DNA from: a virus
Direction: 5' to 3' (one strand)
IMG/VR virus record: IMGVR_UViG_3300010396_000423
Coordinates: 1-21,581 of that record
Length of the DNA: 21,581 nt
Shown in pieces: positions 5,704 through 21,581 of the stretch (positions within the stretch are counted from its first letter, which is position 1; each line of letters starts with the position of its first letter). Position numbers and translations under genes: made by a program. The notes beneath the pieces are model-generated. The model made no database searches and was not told where the DNA came from. It was given only the letters and a program-made list of their open reading frames with translations.

Positions 5704-7662
5704 ATGGGTGGCACGCCGACGCCACCGCCGGGATTCAAACTGGGCGCTCCCCCGCCACCGCCCGGTTTCAAACTAGACAATTCTCCGTCTGTGATGGACC
5801 CGAAGAGTCAGCCGACTCTGGGTCAGAAATTCAAACAGATCGGTAAGTCTCTTGCCGCTCCCGTCGCAGGCATGGGTACGGCTGTAGAAGGTGCGGAAAT
5901 CGGCGGCGCGCTCGCCGGTCCACCCGGCGCAATTGGTGGCGCTGCCATCGGCGGCATGGCCGCTCCGTTTGTCGAGCACGCCACGCAATCAGCCGTTACC
6001 GGCCAACCGTACCAGCCCGTCTCGCGATCGGAAGTCATCAAATCCGCGGTCACCAATGCGGCCTTTACTGGCGCGGGGGAAGTCGGCGGTGCGTTGACGA
6101 AACGCGCGCAAGTCGAGGACGCTGTTCGTGAAGAACTGCAAAACTTGCCGCAAGCGCAGCGGACGACAGCGCGCGTGAAACAGATTCGGCAGGCGATTCA
6201 GGATCGCGTCGAGACCGCTGCTGGCAATACAGCCAAAGTCAGCGTGCAGGATTTGCGCAATCGCAATTTCTGGAAGGCTCACGGCCTGAACGACGAACAG
6301 ATCGATAGCGTACTCAAAAGTCCCGATTTGCAGGCGCAACTTGCACAATCGATCAAGGCTGGCGGCCAGTACAAAGACTCGTTTCAAAACATTCTGAACC
6401 ACCAGCGAGCAGACTTCACCAATCGCTTCGATACAGCCTATGGTGGCCTCAAGGAAACGCCGATTCCGACACAACCAGTCGGACAGGCTATCAAGGGCGT
6501 TTACGATCAACTGGGAACGGAACGGCAACTCAGCCCGGGATTGAAGAAATTCCTTGATTCCAAGTTGGCGGAATTTGGACAAACGGACAATGCGGCGCCC
6601 GACGTGTCGTATGGAAAGACGGCCGCATCGAATGAACAGATTGAGAAGTTGAATCAGCGTATCAAGGCTGAGAAAAAAGGAATGATTCCGCCGGCGAAAG
6701 CTGAGCTTCCGGCCCATGAATTGCGCGACTTCATCACAGAACTCAATGAGCATCTTCCGCGCGGTGCCAGCCAGATCGACAAGATGGCCGTGCAACAAGT
6801 GGAGCAGGCCGCAGAGAAATCCTTCGACGCGGGCCTGAAAGAGGCGGGTGCGAAGCCGGAACAGTTGGCGAGTTTTGAGGCTATCCGACAAGACTATCGC
6901 CGCTTTATGAATACCGTGCGGGAACTCGATCCGCGCTCCGCAGATTATGGCAAACAAGTCGGTGATCTCTTATTTGATCCGATGGCGAAAGACTCAGAAA
7001 CCGCGCTGAACTTCATGAGTATGGCGAAAGCCGCCGAAGCTGCGCGACCAGGCCAAGTCATGCCGCAATTGCGCGAAGCATTTCTCCAGAAGGCGCTTGC
7101 TGAGTCTCGCGTCGGCGGCGCGCCGATGGACGAACTCAAGATGCTTCAGAAGCTCCAGAGAACATGGGGCACGGACAAGAACGCACGCGCGGTTATGGGT
7201 GAAATGTTCGGCAAGGACTCGCCGCTGGCAGATCCGGCGCAATTCACGAAGGTTGTCGATACGGTTAACCATCCTGAACCGCTCAAACTCGCTATCTCGC
7301 AGCCGGGTATGGCGCGATCTATTCTTTCCAGCAAGTATTTTCAGGGCATGATTTCGGCCGGACTGGCGGAATCCATGATGGGTCTCAAGCCGACTTCATT
7401 CTTTCAGGGGCTATTGGGTGAAAAAGGGCCGGAAGTGCAGACGATCGCGATTATATCGGCGCTGGCAGGGCCAAAAGTTATCGACTTCATGGTGAAAAGT
7501 GGCGATTCACCATTGCAGCGCGCCGCCGTCGCGTTCCTGACCAATCCCAATGCGGATAATGCTATTCGTTACGCGGGAAGATTGGCCGGCGGAGTCAGTA
7601 CGGCAATGAACGGAATGCCGAGTCCTCAAGAGACTGCCGATAGTGCTTCAGTCAACCCCTGA
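5704..7662 (+). CDS. Large internal/ejection-type virion protein
   Basis: The 652-residue product begins with a tandem motif, PPPGFKL repeated at about residues 7-13 and 18-24. A Gly/Ala-rich hydrophobic stretch (residues about 51-90, containing GAEIGGALAGPPGAIGGAAI) follows and could insert in a membrane. A long helical, Gln/Lys/Glu-rich body comes next. A further Ala/Gly-rich hydrophobic part lies near residues 540-600 (QTIAIISALAGPKVIDFMV). No lysozyme or transglycosylase motif is visible. This is the largest of three adjacent internal-type proteins, as in podoviruses whose ejected proteins form a channel across the envelope. It starts two bases after the previous stop, with GGTGA about six bases upstream. 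The role is inferred from composition and order. Confidence 0.65.
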   Translation: MGGTPTPPPGFKLGAPPPPPGFKLDNSPSVMDPKSQPTLGQKFKQIGKSLAAPVAGMGTAVEGAEIGGALAGPPGAIGGAAIGGMAAPFVEHATQSAVTGQPYQPVSRSEVIKSAVTNAAFTGAGEVGGALTKRAQVEDAVREELQNLPQAQRTTARVKQIRQAIQDRVETAAGNTAKVSVQDLRNRNFWKAHGLNDEQIDSVLKSPDLQAQLAQSIKAGGQYKDSFQNILNHQRADFTNRFDTAYGGLKETPIPTQPVGQAIKGVYDQLGTERQLSPGLKKFLDSKLAEFGQTDNAAPDVSYGKTAASNEQIEKLNQRIKAEKKGMIPPAKAELPAHELRDFITELNEHLPRGASQIDKMAVQQVEQAAEKSFDAGLKEAGAKPEQLASFEAIRQDYRRFMNTVRELDPRSADYGKQVGDLLFDPMAKDSETALNFMSMAKAAEAARPGQVMPQLREAFLQKALAESRVGGAPMDELKMLQKLQRTWGTDKNARAVMGEMFGKDSPLADPAQFTKVVDTVNHPEPLKLAISQPGMARSILSSKYFQGMISAGLAESMMGLKPTSFFQGLLGEKGPEVQTIAIISALAGPKVIDFMVKSGDSPLQRAAVAFLTNPNADNAIRYAGRLAGGVSTAMNGMPSPQETADSASVNP

Positions 7663-7810
7663 AATACTGGCGATCGCGATCTCGCTCGATGAGGGTATCG
7701 CGAAGCTGACGGCTGGCGAGCAGCAGCTTGCCATTCAGCGCATGGAAGTGCGGCTACGAGTGCAAATGAAGGTCACGAATGCTAATCAATTGGCAAGTCA
7801 TTCCGCATAG
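7643..7810 (+). CDS. Short ORF, hypothetical 55-residue protein
   Basis: A GTG-start ORF of 55 codons bridges the gap between the large internal protein and the HEFIE protein, overlapping the first by 20 bases and the second by 32. Its sequence is a plausible amphipathic helix (ILAIAISLDEGIAKLTAGEQ, then RMEVRLRVQMKV). The Shine-Dalgarno match is weak (AAGAG about 10 bases upstream). Without it, about 115 bases would be non-coding, which is unusual in this densely packed window. It could be a chance ORF; function unknown. Confidence 0.4.
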   Translation: MLQSTPEILAIAISLDEGIAKLTAGEQQLAIQRMEVRLRVQMKVTNANQLASHSA

Positions 7811-8144
7811 CGAACAGCGTTACGAGACTTGCGGAGACTATTGGGAGGACGGTTCGTGCGTCTATTTCCGCACGTCGAGACTGTCGCATCCGAAACATGA
7901 CTGGCTTCTATTCCTGCACGAGTTCATCGAATGTTTCCTGTGTAAATTCGCAGGGATTGCCATCAAGGATATCGACGCTTTCGATCTCGCATACGAGGGC
8001 GACGGAGAGCCGGGAATGGATAAAGCCGCGCCTTACCACTGGCAACATCGCATGGCCGATATCGTGGAGCGCGCAGCCGCATTTGCTTTGGGAGTAGATT
8101 GGGTTGCCTACGATCGCGAAGTCGAGTCACTTCGCAAACCCTAA
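7779..8144 (+). CDS. Phage protein with HEFIE motif
   Basis: GAAGG lies six bases before the ATG and supports this start. The 121-residue product resembles a recurrent phage protein: an opening of the type INWQVIPHSEQRYETCGDYW, a middle HEFIECFLCKFAGI, then FDLAYEGDGEPG. The spaced His-Glu and Glu (HExxE, residues about 47-51) resemble metal-binding helices but do not match the full HExxH peptidase motif, so enzyme activity is not claimed. It is the last gene of the left + strand block. Its final 18 bases overlap the end of the reverse ATP-grasp gene. Its role in the phage is unknown. Confidence 0.7.
   Translation: MLINWQVIPHSEQRYETCGDYWEDGSCVYFRTSRLSHPKHDWLLFLHEFIECFLCKFAGIAIKDIDAFDLAYEGDGEPGMDKAAPYHWQHRMADIVERAAAFALGVDWVAYDREVESLRKP
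8116..8135. terminator. Possible bidirectional hairpin at convergent gene ends
   Basis: A perfect 7-base inverted repeat (GCGAAGT, 6-base loop CGAGTC, ACTTCGC) lies exactly where the + strand HEFIE gene and the - strand ATP-grasp gene converge. Neither side has a T-run, so it is not a classical intrinsic terminator. It also lies within coding sequence of the + gene and spans the stop of the - gene. A transcript-end hairpin is possible; a chance palindrome is the alternative. Confidence 0.3.
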
Positions 8145-9353
8145 CTTCGCCGCTTTCTCGATTTCTTCTTTCACGTCCTCCAGCTTCCCTTTGTCGCAAT
8201 CGAGTCTATCGGCTTTGATCGCTGTGCAATTTGCGGTCGCCATATCGAACCCCTCTTGCAAATCCCCGAATCCGATCGCGGATCCAAACTCTGCCATTTC
8301 CGAATCGTGCGGGATGACCCAAACTTTGCCATCGATCATGCAATAATTGTGGAACGTGTAGCCATCGAGGCTTGGCACATCGACTTCGAGATAGTGATGG
8401 CTCACCCAATCGGACTTCATTACGACCTCGAACAACCAATCACCGGCGAAGTCAGGAGGAACCGGCGTGCCATCGCCGAGCCCTTTCATTACCGCCGACA
8501 AGTTACGGCACGCCGCCATTAGGACGCCACCGGGGGGCGATGGCACGCGGCAGGTCGCGTCGGTAAAGAACACCTGCCCGTTGGGGAGCACGCGCATTTC
8601 GTTGGAGAAAAAGCCTCGATATTGGTGTTTGCCGAAATACTTGCCCAGCGCCACGACCACCTTCTGCACTTCCTTCGGTAACCTTTTGGTGGACTCACAG
8701 ACATACCCCCAATAGCGGGAATCTTTCGTCTCCGCGCCGACGACGAATGGCTCGGCCAGCGCCCCATCACACCACCACCCATCGATACCGATTTCAAATG
8801 CGTCGGGTATGGCGTCCTCGATGATGAATCGCATCTTGGCGCCTAGCGGCCCGAGGCGGCTCTTGAGGTCGTCGTACTCGGTCAGCCAATCGCGGGCGCT
8901 CCGCGTCTCCATGTCGCCGCGAAACACGCTCACTTTGATGTATGTATCGGGATGCTCTTTCAGATAGTCCTTGACGTGCTCGATGCCCTCGATTTCGACC
9001 GACATAATCACGTCCAGGTCGTGCTCGGTCAGAAACTCCTTCAAGTGCCAGCGGTCGGTTTCGAGCTGGGCGGCATCGCCAGCGCCGATGGTCGGAATCC
9101 CGGCCTTGCGCGCCAGCATTTCATAATCGGTGAGATAGAGATCGGGAACCACCACCAGATCGGGCTTGTCCATGAGCGCGCGAATTGGCTCATTGACGCG
9201 TTCTACGCCGGGGATGCCGAGGCCAACTGCCTGCTCTCGGGAGAGCGGGAACGAATTGCCCCAAGTGGAGAAATATCGAACGTCGTAGGACTTGGCGAGA
9301 TGACGGGCCACGTCGGGGAATAGACCGTTATCGATGACGAGGGCTGAGGGCAT
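8127..9353 (-). CDS. ATP-grasp superfamily enzyme
   Basis: I start it at the ATG at 9353 because AAGGTG lies six bases before it; a GTG at 9362 would add three residues. The 408-residue product has a pre-ATP-grasp-like N-terminus (VIDNGLFPDVARHLAKSYDV, DLVVVPDLYLTDYEMLARKAG). ATP-grasp-like elements follow: GAGDAAQLETDRWHLKEFL (residues 90-108), YIKVSVFRGDMET (138-150), IIEDAIPDAFEIGIDGWW (177-194) and a terminal metal-site region NGQVFFTDATCRVPSPPGG (258-276). In glycinamide ribonucleotide synthetase-like enzymes the last element carries Glu and Asn; here Asp and Thr/Cys occupy it. The family ligates a carboxylate to an amine or thiol with ATP. Substrate unknown. It is the only reverse gene in the structural core, suggesting independent acquisition or regulation. 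Confidence 0.75.
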   Translation of the reverse strand: MPSALVIDNGLFPDVARHLAKSYDVRYFSTWGNSFPLSREQAVGLGIPGVERVNEPIRALMDKPDLVVVPDLYLTDYEMLARKAGIPTIGAGDAAQLETDRWHLKEFLTEHDLDVIMSVEIEGIEHVKDYLKEHPDTYIKVSVFRGDMETRSARDWLTEYDDLKSRLGPLGAKMRFIIEDAIPDAFEIGIDGWWCDGALAEPFVVGAETKDSRYWGYVCESTKRLPKEVQKVVVALGKYFGKHQYRGFFSNEMRVLPNGQVFFTDATCRVPSPPGGVLMAACRNLSAVMKGLGDGTPVPPDFAGDWLFEVVMKSDWVSHHYLEVDVPSLDGYTFHNYCMIDGKVWVIPHDSEMAEFGSAIGFGDLQEGFDMATANCTAIKADRLDCDKGKLEDVKEEIEKAAKLGFAK

Positions 9354-16618: not shown

Positions 16619-17650
16619 GTGGCGATCGCGGTTAGAGAAGTCGCAAGACAAGTCGTTGCCAATCTCGGGTTGGATTCTGGCTACGAACTCGCCTCTCAGT
16701 GGGTCGGGCAGCGGTACGCTGAACTCTGTGCCCGTGGAAAATTCCGCCATCTAAGACAGTATGGGCAAGTCTATCTGCCCGCTCCAATCAATTCCGGCAC
16801 TGTCACTGTCACACTCGACAATACGACTGTTCTGCTAGATTCTCAGGCCCTGGCTACGTGCCAAGCGAATCAGTTCTTTCAATGGCCCGATGGATTCACG
16901 GGCCTGTGGTTTCGCCCACAAGTCGCGCTTACCTGGTATCGCATCGCGTCGGCTTATGAGCAGAACGGCGTCGGCACGCTGATACTTGAGACGCCCTTTG
17001 CGCAGGACAACGGGTTTCTCTTTAACCAGAGCAATCCGCCGCCGATCACGCAGAGCGGTATCCCATTTTACATCCTGCCTCGATATGTCGAACTCGCCAC
17101 TGATGCACGCCAGCTTGGGGTATTCGTGTGCGACTTCATGTATCGCACGCTCGATCTCCTGAGCGAAGATGAATTGAACCGCAAGGCTCCGAACCGTTTT
17201 CTGGTCTGGGCCTACCCGCAATTTGTCGCGGAACTCAATAGTAATTTGAACGCGACGGGCGCGCCGAAACAGGTCGAGATTTATCCGTGGCCGACCGAAT
17301 CGGTGACGATGCACTACACCTATTGGGCGACTCCGCGTCTGCTGGGTATCGAGGATTATTTGCCGCCGACTATCGACCCTGACATCGTTCGCACGGGCGC
17401 GATGGTCGATGCGTGCAACAACCGCGCGGGCAAGGCGGTGCGAGCGGGGAATCTGCAAGAAGCGGCATACTGGACGAACCTCGGCAATCAGAACCGGACT
17501 CAATTTGAGAGCAAAGTCGCGCGCGCGATCCGCAACGATATGGGCGCCGAGGACTTGGCGTTCTCGCTCCTGCGCGCGGGATGGAAGCCACCACTCGATT
17601 GGGATCCAGTGACGAGTGCTTACGAAAACTTCCTCGCAAGGGGCGTCTAA
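16619..17650 (+). CDS. Neck/adaptor-like structural protein
   Basis: I use the GTG at 16619; an ATG two bases earlier is in a different frame and reaches a stop after about 44 codons. The 343-residue product begins with helices (VREVARQVVANLGLDSGYEL; ASQWVGQRYAELCARGKFRH). A beta part follows (GTVTVTLDNTTVLL, GLWFRPQVALTWYRI), then VEIYPWPTESVTMHYTYWAT near residues 219-238. It ends in helices with EAAYWTNLGNQNRTQFESKV. The YPWPTESVTMHYTYWA type of element followed by DxDIVRTGAMVDA occurs in phage neck or tail-tube proteins encoded after the capsid gene. That makes it the likely connector between portal and tail, alongside the partial gene at the window start. Confidence 0.6.
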   Translation: MAIAVREVARQVVANLGLDSGYELASQWVGQRYAELCARGKFRHLRQYGQVYLPAPINSGTVTVTLDNTTVLLDSQALATCQANQFFQWPDGFTGLWFRPQVALTWYRIASAYEQNGVGTLILETPFAQDNGFLFNQSNPPPITQSGIPFYILPRYVELATDARQLGVFVCDFMYRTLDLLSEDELNRKAPNRFLVWAYPQFVAELNSNLNATGAPKQVEIYPWPTESVTMHYTYWATPRLLGIEDYLPPTIDPDIVRTGAMVDACNNRAGKAVRAGNLQEAAYWTNLGNQNRTQFESKVARAIRNDMGAEDLAFSLLRAGWKPPLDWDPVTSAYENFLARGV

Positions 17651-19026
17651 TGCGTTGGCGGTTCATATTCTTGGCGGTATTGCTGGCTGGCTGTACCACG
17701 GTCAATCAGCCCGGCAAATATGCGACAGGTCTTGACGACAGCAATACCGTCAACTCGCTCACGAATCTAAATCCGGCACTAACGACCTATGGCGGATCGT
17801 CCTACGCGAGTCAGCTTTACAACAGTCTCGCCGATGAGGACGCGAATCGCTGGTATGAGCAGGGCTTCGGCAATTTCGTCAGCACCATAGCAAACGCCAA
17901 TGCGTGCCTCGGAGGGACGAGCGCGGGACTGACGATGACGCCGACGGCCTGTGTGGCCTATAACGCGGGCTATCGCGGGACTGAGAGCGGCAGCATCACC
18001 TTCTCGAACGGCGCGACTACCTGGGTTGCGATGGACGAGAACACCAGCGGCAACAATGCGAACCTGCCGAATTTCACGCGCGTGACGGGTACGCATTACC
18101 TGATCGATTCAATCGATGTCGGGAAGCCGACGATGGCTTTCGACTCGCAACTTTTGATGCAGGTGGTGACGAGCGGCGGCGCGATCACAGGCGTCACGGA
18201 TGAGCGAACATTACTGGTGCCCGCGAACATCGCTCCTGCTACTGGAGTCGTCTGGACGGTCGCGCAGGGCGGCACGGGGCGCTCTACGCTGACGGCGCAC
18301 GATATTTTACTGGGTGAGGGGACGGCGAGCATCGGGGAATTGGCGTGCGCGAACAATCAATTCCTTGCGGGCGTCACGTCATCCGATCCGGCGTGTCGAT
18401 TACTCACTACCGCGGATGTGCCCGGCTTCGATGGAGTCACGGTGACGGGGACGCCGAGCGCGGGGCAGGTGCTTACGGCGAGCGGTACGAGCGCAGCTAC
18501 GTGGTCATCGGGGAACATCACGCGCAGCAATCTCCAGACCGGCAACCCGCTCGCGACGGTGAGCAATTCAACCACCGAGACGACGATGTTCACCTATTCG
18601 CTGGCGGGAGGGACATTAACCGTGAACGGAATCCTGCGGTGTCATGCGGAGGGGAATTATCTAAACAATTCGGGCGCTGACGGAACTGCGACATTCAAGT
18701 TCTATTACGGGGCCTCGGCAATTCTCACTGCGGGTACCACCATCCCGGGTGTTTCGGCTAGCGCGACGCCATCGCCCTGGGCAGCCGATATCACTCTGGG
18801 CACAATCGGAGCAACCAACACGGAATGGGCGGCGATAACTTTAGATGCCCCGACAGTTGGATTTGTGGACAATGCGCAAGGTCAAGCCGGCGTTCACATG
18901 TCGCGCAATTCCTCAGTCGCGGTGGACTCCACGGCCAGTCAGACCGTGACACTCACCGGAACGATGTCCACGGCAACTTCGTCGCAGACGCTGAATATTT
19001 TTACCAGCTTTTGTCAGCTCCAATAA
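17650..19026 (+). CDS. Tail-fibre-like protein with lipoprotein signal
   Basis: I start it at the ATG at 17650 (TAATG overlap; AAGGGG six bases upstream), which gives the N-terminus MRWRFIFLAVLLAGC. That is a textbook lipoprotein signal: Arg residues, hydrophobic core and lipobox LAGC with Cys at residue 15. An in-frame ATG at 17581 would bury this signal inside the previous gene. The rest of the 458-residue protein is fibre-like: Thr/Ser/Gly/Ala-rich, the VAQGGTG motif typical of tail fibres at residues 204-210, then ILLGEGTASIGELAC. A C-terminal beta domain runs from about residue 300 (TETTMFTYSLAGGTLTVNG to the end). Virion fibres are normally cytoplasmic, so the lipobox is unusual. The alternative is a surface lipoprotein that borrows fibre domains. 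Confidence 0.65.
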   Translation: MRWRFIFLAVLLAGCTTVNQPGKYATGLDDSNTVNSLTNLNPALTTYGGSSYASQLYNSLADEDANRWYEQGFGNFVSTIANANACLGGTSAGLTMTPTACVAYNAGYRGTESGSITFSNGATTWVAMDENTSGNNANLPNFTRVTGTHYLIDSIDVGKPTMAFDSQLLMQVVTSGGAITGVTDERTLLVPANIAPATGVVWTVAQGGTGRSTLTAHDILLGEGTASIGELACANNQFLAGVTSSDPACRLLTTADVPGFDGVTVTGTPSAGQVLTASGTSAATWSSGNITRSNLQTGNPLATVSNSTTETTMFTYSLAGGTLTVNGILRCHAEGNYLNNSGADGTATFKFYYGASAILTAGTTIPGVSASATPSPWAADITLGTIGATNTEWAAITLDAPTVGFVDNAQGQAGVHMSRNSSVAVDSTASQTVTLTGTMSTATSSQTLNIFTSFCQLQ

Positions 19027-19260
19027 TCAGGAGTCCGACCAGCAGGCAGTCGTAACGGAATTGGGAAGCCAGAACGGATTATAGCCGCTAACGCTCGACG
19101 AAACGGTGGTAAACAGCGCGGCTGTCGTATTGCAATCGGTCTGCGAGGCGAACGGCCCGAACTGAATAGGTGAGAACGATTTGGCGTGCGACGACTTCAC
19201 CGGGATGGACAGGATGAAGAAGAACCCCCCGATGGCAAGCAGATGGATGCAGCGTTTCAT
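19027..19260 (-). CDS. Small secreted Cys-containing protein
   Basis: The ATG at 19260 is preceded by GGAGG at an eight-base spacing on the reverse strand, a very good ribosome-binding site. The in-frame TTG at 19275 overlaps that site and is less likely. The 77-residue product starts MKRCIHLLAIGGFFFILSIP with basic start, hydrophobic core and a SHA cleavage-like site, i.e. a Sec signal peptide. The mature part of about 50 residues contains FGPFASQTDCNTTAALFTTV and ends SVTTACWSDS, with two Cys. The FGPFxxxxxC...C-W layout resembles small exported proteins seen in bacteria and phages, with no function known to me. It abuts the stop of the fibre gene (convergent) and is divergent from the next one, 29 bases away. 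Confidence 0.65.
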   Translation of the reverse strand: MKRCIHLLAIGGFFFILSIPVKSSHAKSFSPIQFGPFASQTDCNTTAALFTTVSSSVSGYNPFWLPNSVTTACWSDS

Positions 19261-19268
19261 ATTCGTAA

Positions 19269-19273
19269 CCTCC
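19269..19273 (-). promoter_or_regulatory. Shine-Dalgarno site of the secreted small protein
   Basis: Reverse-strand GGAGG lies eight bases before the ATG at 19260. It decides the start and is the main evidence that this reverse ORF is a gene and not an antisense shadow. Confidence 0.6.
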
Positions 19274-19289
19274 AAGAGCGATAACTAGC

Positions 19290-20438
19290 ATGAAAGTACG
19301 CCGCATAGGAAGCCTCTGTATTGCAGCGTTGCTGTGGGTCGTTCCGGCCTTCGCAACGCCCACGGCAGGCACCAATCAGCCGCCGACGGCATACGGAACG
19401 TGCATGGGCTATCAGCCGGGCATTGGCGGCGATTTCTGCCTCAATGACGGATCGGCATCGTTCTGGCAGAAATTCATCGGCGACGTGACCAACGACTCGC
19501 GCGGGACTCCGCAGTGTTCGCCGACCAACACGACGAATTGCGGCCATCTCAAGGTGCAGGGCTTTCAAGGCGTTCCACTGGTTGGCAGCCCGACGGATGG
19601 GCAGACCTTTTGTTATCAGGCATCGCCGGGGCCGGAGTTCGTGCCTTGTCCCGGCAGCGGTAGCGGATTCGTCAGCAACGTAACCGCCAGTCCACCTCTG
19701 GGTTCGTCCGGGGGGGCAACCCCGAACATCACCGCGAGCGTCGTGCAGGGGAACGGCACGAAGCTACAGCTTTCAACCGGCACGACGACCACAAACGATT
19801 GCGTGAAGTACGACGCCAACGGGAATACCGTCGATGCGGGAGTCTCGTGTTCATCGTCGGGGCAATACCCGTCGGGTGCACCACCGCAAATCGCCGGCTA
19901 CAGCACGACGAACACGCCGGAAGCTGAGACCGTCAGCGGCGACGGCAGCTTTGCTCGCGCGGGGGCCAATTCCTACACGCTGACCGTCACCAAAATAAAC
20001 GGCACGACACCCGGTGGAAGTTGTTCGGCAGGCTCGATTGTAACCAGCATCAGCGCAAGCGGTGTTCCGACGTGCACGCAGAAAACCGATCCGTTCGTGT
20101 GCGGGTCTATCCCCGTTCCAACGAACAGCCAAGTCCTATGCGACATTCCGATCACCAAGGCTGAGACCATCCCGAGCAATTGTACCGGGTCGCAAGCAGG
20201 CTCGACGATCGCGGCAACGGGAACGGCGACCTTTACTATCAACAAGATTCACTCCGGCTCGACGACGGCAGCGGGAACGGTCGCATGGTCTGGCTCTGGT
20301 ACGACAGGCGCGTTTACCTGCTCCGGCTCTACTTCGTTCGTCGCGGGCGACATTTTACAAATCGTGGCTCCAAGTTCAGCCGACGCAACGCTTGCGGGCC
20401 TCGGGATTGCGATTTCGATGAACGCTGGGGCGCTGTGA
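19290..20438 (+). CDS. Tail-fibre-like protein with Sec signal peptide
   Basis: The 382-residue product begins MKVRRIGSLCIAALLWVVPA then FATPT, giving a positive start, a hydrophobic core and an AFA cleavage-like site after residue 22. The mature part is Gly/Thr/Ser-rich with low-complexity strands, several Cys and a fibre-like texture. Its C-terminal domain (from about residue 274) contains IPVPTNSQVLCDIPITKAET, then FTINKIHSGSTTAAGTVAWS, and ends SFVAGDILQIVAPSSADATL. This resembles the common phage fibre-tip domain with GDxLxIxAP and DATLA near its end. The ATG has only a weak Shine-Dalgarno site (AAGAG at spacing 11). Its stop overlaps the next start as GTGA. Confidence 0.65.
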   Translation: MKVRRIGSLCIAALLWVVPAFATPTAGTNQPPTAYGTCMGYQPGIGGDFCLNDGSASFWQKFIGDVTNDSRGTPQCSPTNTTNCGHLKVQGFQGVPLVGSPTDGQTFCYQASPGPEFVPCPGSGSGFVSNVTASPPLGSSGGATPNITASVVQGNGTKLQLSTGTTTTNDCVKYDANGNTVDAGVSCSSSGQYPSGAPPQIAGYSTTNTPEAETVSGDGSFARAGANSYTLTVTKINGTTPGGSCSAGSIVTSISASGVPTCTQKTDPFVCGSIPVPTNSQVLCDIPITKAETIPSNCTGSQAGSTIAATGTATFTINKIHSGSTTAAGTVAWSGSGTTGAFTCSGSTSFVAGDILQIVAPSSADATLAGLGIAISMNAGAL

Positions 20439-21581
20439 TTCGGCGCTTCGTCATAGCTCTCGCGTTGCTTCTGTGTGCCGCGCCGGCCTTTGCGCAGACG
20501 CGGACGCTGATTGCGTCGGGCGGCTGGGAAGGCTACGGCGCGCCATCTCCGATCAACGCGGCGACGGGCAACTACTTCTTTCCACCGTACAACATCAACG
20601 AGCCTAACTGTTTCGCTATCAATACCATCGTGAAGCCGCCGTGGGACCCGAATGGCGCGGGTGGCACAGACCATTACGTGCAAGCGACCGGCAGTTGCAG
20701 CAGCGGGAATCCGGGGGCCGGACTCTATCTGCGCATGGGCGCGCCACATCGCGCGATCGAGATAGTGAAGTGGATTCGCCTCGATAGCAACGTCACGTCA
20801 TCCGACCTCTTTGTTGATCGCTGGAATGATTCCACGCACGTATCGACTACCGGCACCATGATCGGCGCGCTCGATTACGCGACTGATTTTTTCGACACCA
20901 GCAACCGATTCAATAACAGCGGCGTGAGCACACCGAGCACCGCATTCGTACTCGGCGTGTGGCATCAGATCGATTCCTGCTTCATCGCGGGAATCAACGG
21001 CAGTGCCACGATTCCGACGGCGGCGACACTCTGGATCGACCAGACGCTTATCGGAACGGGAACTCCGGCGACTACTGCTTCAAACGGTGGAGGCGATACC
21101 GTCACCATAGCCGACAACGAATTGGGCGGTGGCGCGGCGAGCACAGGGCCGTACATGATTTTCGACGTGGGGACATCCTGCCCCGCGAGCGCCTATCCGA
21201 CCTTCTATTCTGTAGCGGTTCAGCCGACCGGCAATAACACGGTCGCGTTCACGCCGAGCGCGAATACCAACTGGCAGAACGTCGCGGGAATTGCGGGGGC
21301 GCTTGGTTTTAATTCGGACGCGACGGTGGGCGCACAGGATTATTACAATCTGACGCTCCCGACGGTAACTAACGTCGTCGCCGTCAACGAGCGGATCAGC
21401 GTGCAACAAGACGCTGGCGGTACGCGTATAGCCCTACCGCTTTATAACAGCGGCAGCACTCCGACGGAATGCCCGATTAGCAATGGCCTGACGCTGGGCG
21501 GGGGACCATTTCAGCCGGGGCAGCCGATCGCATTACAGGTCGGCATCTATCAGTCGGTCATGTGCAATCTCGCGGCTGCTC
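20435..21581 (+). CDS. Tail-fibre-like protein with Sec signal peptide and LamG-like domain, 3' end cut off
   Basis: The GTG start overlaps the previous stop (GTGA), and the frame stays open for 382 codons to the end of the window. The N-terminus VIRRFVIALALLLCAAPAFA is a clear Sec signal with an AFA site before Gln21. Residues of about 50-255 look like a laminin-G/concanavalin-type domain (LYLRMGAPHRAIEIVKWIRL, FVLGVWHQIDSCFI, TLWIDQTLIGTG). A segment from about residue 260 (NWQNVAGIAGALGF, VGAQDYYNLTLPTV, RISVQQDAGGTRIAL) matches a pattern seen in many phage virion proteins after a LamG-type domain. Glycan binding at the cell surface is a reasonable guess. The 3' end is missing, so total length and C-terminal domains are unknown. 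Confidence 0.65.
   Translation, partial: MIRRFVIALALLLCAAPAFAQTRTLIASGGWEGYGAPSPINAATGNYFFPPYNINEPNCFAINTIVKPPWDPNGAGGTDHYVQATGSCSSGNPGAGLYLRMGAPHRAIEIVKWIRLDSNVTSSDLFVDRWNDSTHVSTTGTMIGALDYATDFFDTSNRFNNSGVSTPSTAFVLGVWHQIDSCFIAGINGSATIPTAATLWIDQTLIGTGTPATTASNGGGDTVTIADNELGGGAASTGPYMIFDVGTSCPASAYPTFYSVAVQPTGNNTVAFTPSANTNWQNVAGIAGALGFNSDATVGAQDYYNLTLPTVTNVVAVNERISVQQDAGGTRIALPLYNSGSTPTECPISNGLTLGGGPFQPGQPIALQVGIYQSVMCNLAAA

Follow-up and report, generated by a model that had tools for sequence, protein, structure and literature searches.

The stretch of DNA considered here (the window) comprises the 21,581 bases of the uncultured virus record IMGVR_UViG_3300010396_000423, which belongs to an uncultured, soil-type phage group and encodes an SU10-like portal (PF23899) and a capsid protein, both recognized by Pfam matches. 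In its last part, three fibre-like genes (here A, B and C) and a small divergent gene follow an adaptor-like structural gene of 343 amino acids (16619–17650, plus strand), and all four begin with an export signal, which has a lipobox (LAGC) in A, the site A-F-A in both B and C, and S-H-A in the small gene. The adaptor-like gene lies directly upstream of the fibre module and is 57–86 % identical in seven other loci. Pfam and PHROG searches gave no name for it, and its placement between the capsid and fibre genes suggests an adaptor role. It was used as the anchor for locating the equivalent site in related phages.

Gene A (17650–19026, plus strand), supported by its open reading frame, a gene caller and a conserved N-domain, encodes a putative fibre-like lipoprotein precursor of 458 amino acids. 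Its signal and lipobox (17650–17694, plus strand), evident in the sequence and from a rule-based call, read MRWRFIFLAVLLAGC and are followed by TTVN, with Cys15 as the predicted lipidated residue. The signal ends, as in bacterial lipoproteins, within the pattern L-[ASG]-[AG]-C (LAGC in A), the homologues having IAGC, IGC or FGC. Six mature cysteines follow the lipobox cysteine. The N-terminal ~190 amino acids are conserved and the remainder is divergent; the N-domain obtained by alignment of homologues (residues 29–190; 17734–18219, plus strand) is conserved in eight loci, with a mean identity of 0.73 compared with 0.35 in the signal region, and its Cys86-Cys101 pair is kept in every homologue covering that region.

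Gene B (19290–20438, plus strand) is an open reading frame for a fibre-like precursor of 382 amino acids, the C-terminus of which matches tail fibre PHROG 7049. Its Sec/signal peptidase I (SPI) signal (19290–19355, plus strand), again found both in the sequence and by the rule, is MKVRRIGSLCIAALLWVVPAFA, followed by TPT. The 14 mature cysteines are arranged as closely spaced pairs; the N-domain defined by alignment (19401–19649, plus strand) holds six invariant ones (38–50, 76–84 and 108–120) and has a mean identity of 0.65 versus 0.47 in the signal region. A stand-alone 111-amino-acid form of this N-domain, with six mature cysteines, is encoded in the related locus L061. The C-terminal tail-fibre domain (residues 269–382; 20094–20435, plus strand) contains four cysteines and is related to tail fibres of cultured phages. 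Gene C (20435–21581, plus strand), whose GTG overlaps the TGA of B, encodes a fibre-like precursor with 382 amino acids within the contig and is open at the contig end; its complete homologues have 409–410 amino acids, with signals present. The N-terminus of C reads MIRRFVIALALLLCAAPAFA, followed by QTR, and its Sec/SPI signal, read from the sequence, is (V/M)IRRFVIALALLLCAAPAFA (20435–20494, plus strand); the L006 and L016 homologues show AHAQTR at the equivalent position. The cysteine pair 134/146 of the L016 homologue, also present in L006, is absent as a pair from the C protein of the window. The positive n-region, hydrophobic core and small residues at −3/−1 that characterize Sec/SPI signals were found in B and C, both by the rule and by eye.

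A sequence-only reading of the window had proposed that a lipobox (LAGC) or a Sec signal with an AFA site opens the genes at 17650, 19290 and 20435 and that the position of the starts supports them. The signals were confirmed by agreement between the sequence and the rule-based call, and the starts are indeed backed by position: the ATG of A overlaps the upstream TAA (TAATG), the GTG of C lies within GTGA, and a distance of 30 bases separates the ATG of B from the divergent start (19260). A codon-usage gene caller, which is blind to signals, chooses identical starts. The only in-frame start codons in the interval from signal to conserved domain are TTGs within the signals, and the next ATG of B is codon 39, already within the conserved cysteine domain. 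Since a check for alternative starts found none between signal and conserved domain in A, B or C, any start placed further downstream would truncate conserved sequence. An artefact, due to wrong starts or to chance hydrophobic N-termini, is scarcely credible here. One false case does occur among the relatives, where a signal before MANPAY/MANPLY (L023:11660–13357 and L026:5099–6820) was discarded because it comes from reading the end of the upstream tail gene in the wrong frame; such a case is a pitfall for automatic signal calling. In A, B and C, however, the signals overlap the upstream genes by no more than a stop-start, and for these three genes an artefact is refuted by conservation across relatives. 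Chance, wrong starts and contamination were considered and rejected.

Searching IMG/VR with the adaptor gene yielded 10 relatives, or 14 when an alignment was used, and more were obtained via the portal. Wherever it is readable in these relatives, the gene after the adaptor bears a signal, as in L006 (MKDRKTRFLLLVLAAALLLLIPVFA), L008 (MRRLIPILFALLIGC), L010 (MRQSILFLALFVFGC), L012 (MKRLAMVLLILLVFCVQVWA), L013 (MKRLPLVATLIFLTLGVAFA), L014 (MKKLIPFIPVALLLCVAATA, then MKQALLSLGFAIAVLLLVARTSHA) and L061 (MATKFVIALLLCLTPALGWA). All homologues of A (eight loci) and B (six loci, including L061) with an intact N-terminus carry a signal, none of them being signal-less, so that the comparison of homologues shows the N-terminal signals to be conserved. 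The type of signal preceding the A domain varies: a lipobox is also present in L006, L007 and L008, L010 has the FGC variant, and L012, L013 and L014 have SPI-type signals. Since some phages have a lipobox and others an SPI signal at this site, membrane anchoring of A is not essential. In this phage group, the automatic rule assigned a strong signal to 36 of 41 called fibre-zone genes compared with 15 of 304 elsewhere (Fisher p ~2e-31, a value that overstates the enrichment because related phages do not contribute independent genes), and several of those 15 are fibre-gene copies or lysis-region lipoproteins. When checked on a 45-kb stretch of E. coli with 37 genes, the rule at the threshold used caught FhuA, BtuF and BamA and missed DegP, Skp and FhuD, its false calls being multi-pass membrane proteins. 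The number of fibre-like exported proteins is about three to eight per phage, and they reach 1077 amino acids in relatives. In the apparently complete L006/L024, seven consecutive genes bear signals, one of them, of 100 amino acids, possibly being a membrane anchor, and L013/L031 has a second signal-bearing cluster adjoining a large tail gene.

Even numbers of cysteines are usual in disulphide-bonded exported proteins. Within a curated set of 28 exported proteins, 27 of which have any cysteine, the mature count is even in 26 of the 27 (p = 2e-7), and the precursor count is odd in all 13 proteins with a cysteine inside the signal. The capsid protein of the window and the genes preceding it have zero cysteines. 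As far as can be judged from the sequences, this parity favours a periplasmic mature protein from which the signal has been removed. This evidence bears on the explanation that the hydrophobic N-termini remain uncleaved, either as anchors, by analogy with signal-arrest-release (SAR) endolysins, or as a device that inserts the fibre into a membrane or the tail. Phage endolysins are a known case of signal-anchor export (PMC6116005), and some homologues have no clean cleavage site (the B-type protein of L005, in which a hydrophobic stretch is present, and L006 15074). Most signals, however, close with an A-x-A site or a lipobox, and the signal cysteine falls outside the even mature count in 13 of 13 cases, which makes uncleaved anchors very improbable. 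As for C-terminal membrane anchoring, the C-termini inspected have no evident anchor.

Tail fibres usually combine a conserved N-domain with a C-terminus that varies, and A is built in this way; its conserved N-terminal part may bind the tail. The fibre module is placed directly after the adaptor gene in the structural operon, and collagen-like stalks, tail-fibre PHROGs and a pectate-lyase-like stretch are found in the exported homologues. A and C themselves have no family match, although the L006 homologues of A and B do, and a PDB profile search using the A domain gave no match. The C-terminal domain of B (~90–115 amino acids) weakly matches tail proteins annotated in cultured phages of Burkholderia, Caulobacter and Mesorhizobium; these relatives have neither a signal nor cysteines in the domain, whereas the domain of B has four. 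Among these phages, phiCbK gp101, the counterpart of CcrKarma gp102, was contained in purified virions (PMC3556154). Searches of cultured phages gave no match to the portal, the adaptor, the full B protein, a homologue of C, the domain of A or the fibre of L015; for the L014 fibre, the one match was to a short segment of a tail protein from an Aeribacillus phage.

The fibre-like features also bear on two explanations in which the exported proteins never become virion parts. According to the first, A, B and C act on the infected cell by blocking or masking receptors (superinfection exclusion) or by altering the envelope. Such a role has a precedent in T5 Llp, a small lipoprotein encoded beside the receptor-binding protein gene that blocks FhuA (PMC9586334), and would suit the lipobox of A. 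The Llp-type proteins are, however, described as small and single, whereas the fibre site here encodes about three to eight proteins that are mostly large and have collagen-like stalks and tail-fibre domains; B and C are not lipoproteins, the swapping of lipobox and SPI signals in A indicates that membrane anchoring is dispensable, and few signal-less fibre candidates are left in these genomes. Hence superinfection exclusion or receptor masking, which the sequence-only reading had offered among its options, is not favoured, given the large size, the number per phage, the site in the structural operon and the fibre layout and domains, and a cell-acting role is considered unlikely. According to the second explanation, the proteins are exported and freed at lysis to act on surrounding glycans as lectins or depolymerases, or as decoys. 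Lysis would release periplasmic proteins, and an exported homologue from L014 gave a weak pectate-lyase-like match; no catalytic domain was found in the proteins of the window, however, and conserved N-domains suited to virion attachment, collagen-like stalks and the adaptor-adjacent site fit fibres better, which leaves this possibility rather improbable.

The preferred reading takes A, B and C as proteins of the tail-fibre or spike type, belonging to an uncultured phage that has an SU10-like portal; they would be made as preproteins and exported via the host Sec system. B and C would be cut by signal peptidase I, and A would be lipidated and cut by signal peptidase II, after which the proteins would fold with disulphide bonds in the periplasm and join otherwise finished tails at or after lysis, as cytoplasm and periplasm mix. 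Export of A, B and C is very probable, disulphide formation in the periplasm is probable, and for late joining as virion fibres the balance tips only slightly in favour; the sequence of export, periplasmic disulphide bonding and joining at or after lysis is, taken as a whole, the favoured account by a modest measure. The computational support consists of conserved signals, forced starts, a cysteine pairing that would fit a cleaved, oxidised form, and fibre architecture. The usual view is that the fibres of tailed phages fold in the cytoplasm and are attached there before lysis; at the level of sequence, the conserved signals and even cysteine counts speak against cytoplasmic making and assembly in this group. 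T4 fibres and P22 tailspikes can be added to particles in vitro. The earlier suggestion that export signals on consecutive fibre-like proteins point to another biology is upheld in that the signals are real and conserved. Among its options, the idea of signal-anchored fibres employed late, during assembly or release, came closest to the present reading, although most signals look cleavable and cysteine parity favours a signal-free form.

Several points weigh against this reading. It requires a periplasmic or lipidated fibre to reach a tail built in the cytoplasm. The export signals were called by a simple rule rather than by SignalP. The curated cysteine set was picked after the sequences had been inspected, and its members share domains; in the automatic set the effect is weaker, with even counts in 23 of 28 proteins (12 of 14 for those with a signal cysteine) versus 43 of 85 other genes, and, when restricted to proteins with at least four cysteines, in 17 of 19 versus 19 of 27 other genes. 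Cysteine richness is not confined to signal-bearing genes, since a signal-less gene between the capsid and adaptor genes of L005 (5067–6074) has 11 cysteines. The links from B to cultured fibres are weak (E 0.003–0.09). AlphaFold2 was unusable for A (predicted local distance difference test score, pLDDT, 31; 9-row alignment) and C (pLDDT 27; 3 rows). The location on the virion and the moment of joining are inferred.

The lineage may work in two compartments, with the capsid and tail made in the cytoplasm and the receptor-binding fibres in the oxidising periplasm via Sec and partly lipidation, so that the virion would be completed only at lysis; the chances of this are about even. If true, such assembly in two compartments would account for the richness of the fibres in disulphides, the host Sec, lipoprotein and disulphide-forming enzymes would become part of virion production, and fibres of this kind would have to be expressed in the periplasm for study. 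Genes of viral contigs regarded as secreted may be structural, and a signal combined with an even cysteine count could serve as a simple marker when other uncultured phages are searched for this strategy.

The small divergent gene (19027–19260, minus strand; rule-based call) encodes 77 amino acids with the Sec signal MKRCIHLLAIGGFFFILSIPVKSSHA and two mature cysteines. It is preceded by a good ribosome-binding site (GGAGG just ahead of the ATG), ends directly beside the stop of A and has no homologue among the loci examined. Elsewhere in the window, a gene of ~410 amino acids on the minus strand (8127–9353) lies inside the structural operon, as it does in the relatives examined, and has no Pfam match. 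Genes for papain-family cysteine proteases (PF00112) are located near the lysis region in two relatives (L025:5687–6520 and L014:13654–14454). The ends of the 60-kb and 54-kb contigs (L006/L023 and L007/L026) overlap themselves at ~90 %, not 100 %, identity, which suggests that the genomes are circular or terminally redundant and that mixed strains went into their assembly. In L015, a fibre gene (7410–8786) and apparently also the preceding small gene have export signals, and the other genes of the contig showed no relation to this group; L015 is possibly a second lineage with a signal-bearing fibre gene.

With respect to the host, a genome scan using the adaptor gave no match, and one using the portal found a 55 % relative on a 7.3-kb contig (L068, JASHWB010000471.1) of a Candidatus Acidiferrales metagenome-assembled genome (MAG). 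As this single MAG contig is the only portal match among 396 genomes of its phylum, an Acidobacteriota host is only hinted at. Another genome of the same phylum contains a truncated fibre-like match, the N-terminus of which is not readable.

No precedent for a tailed phage with Sec-exported tail fibres was found in the literature, as covered by open-licence papers. Target proteins of phage diversity-generating retroelements, some of which are fibres, are said to lack signal peptides (PMC6199706). Exported proteins of tailed phages are already known for lysis (endolysins and spanins), for Lom and for superinfection exclusion. Secreted and SAR endolysins (fOg44 Lys44 and P1 Lyz) are likewise exported by Sec during infection (PMC6116005), although they are lysis enzymes rather than fibres. 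T5 Llp and the Cor lipoproteins resemble A as phage-encoded exported lipoproteins encoded beside receptor-binding genes (PMC9586334), but they are described as small and as acting on a host receptor, whereas A has 458 amino acids, a fibre architecture and similar companions. Lambda Lom is a signal-peptide gene between the tail spike and tail fibre genes (PMC12309495), but its product is an outer-membrane beta-barrel and no fibre. The M13 G3p is a receptor-binding virion protein with a Sec signal (PMC8310372), yet M13 does not belong to the tailed phages and assembles at the membrane. In Porphyromonas gingivalis phages (proposed Nixviridae), several genes, some structural, have Sec signals (PMC10367356); in the parts of that report consulted, however, the capsid signals are ascribed to the prohead protease, the rest have no assigned function, and neither a fibre module nor cysteine pairing is described. 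The fibres of Burkholderia phage BcepSauron, phiCbK-like Caulobacter phages and Mesorhizobium phage Cp1R7A-A1 share the C-terminal domain of B in a tail-fibre setting, but differ in having no signal peptide, a cysteine content of 0–0.65 % (in the matched or neighbouring fibre proteins) and a shared domain that is free of cysteine.

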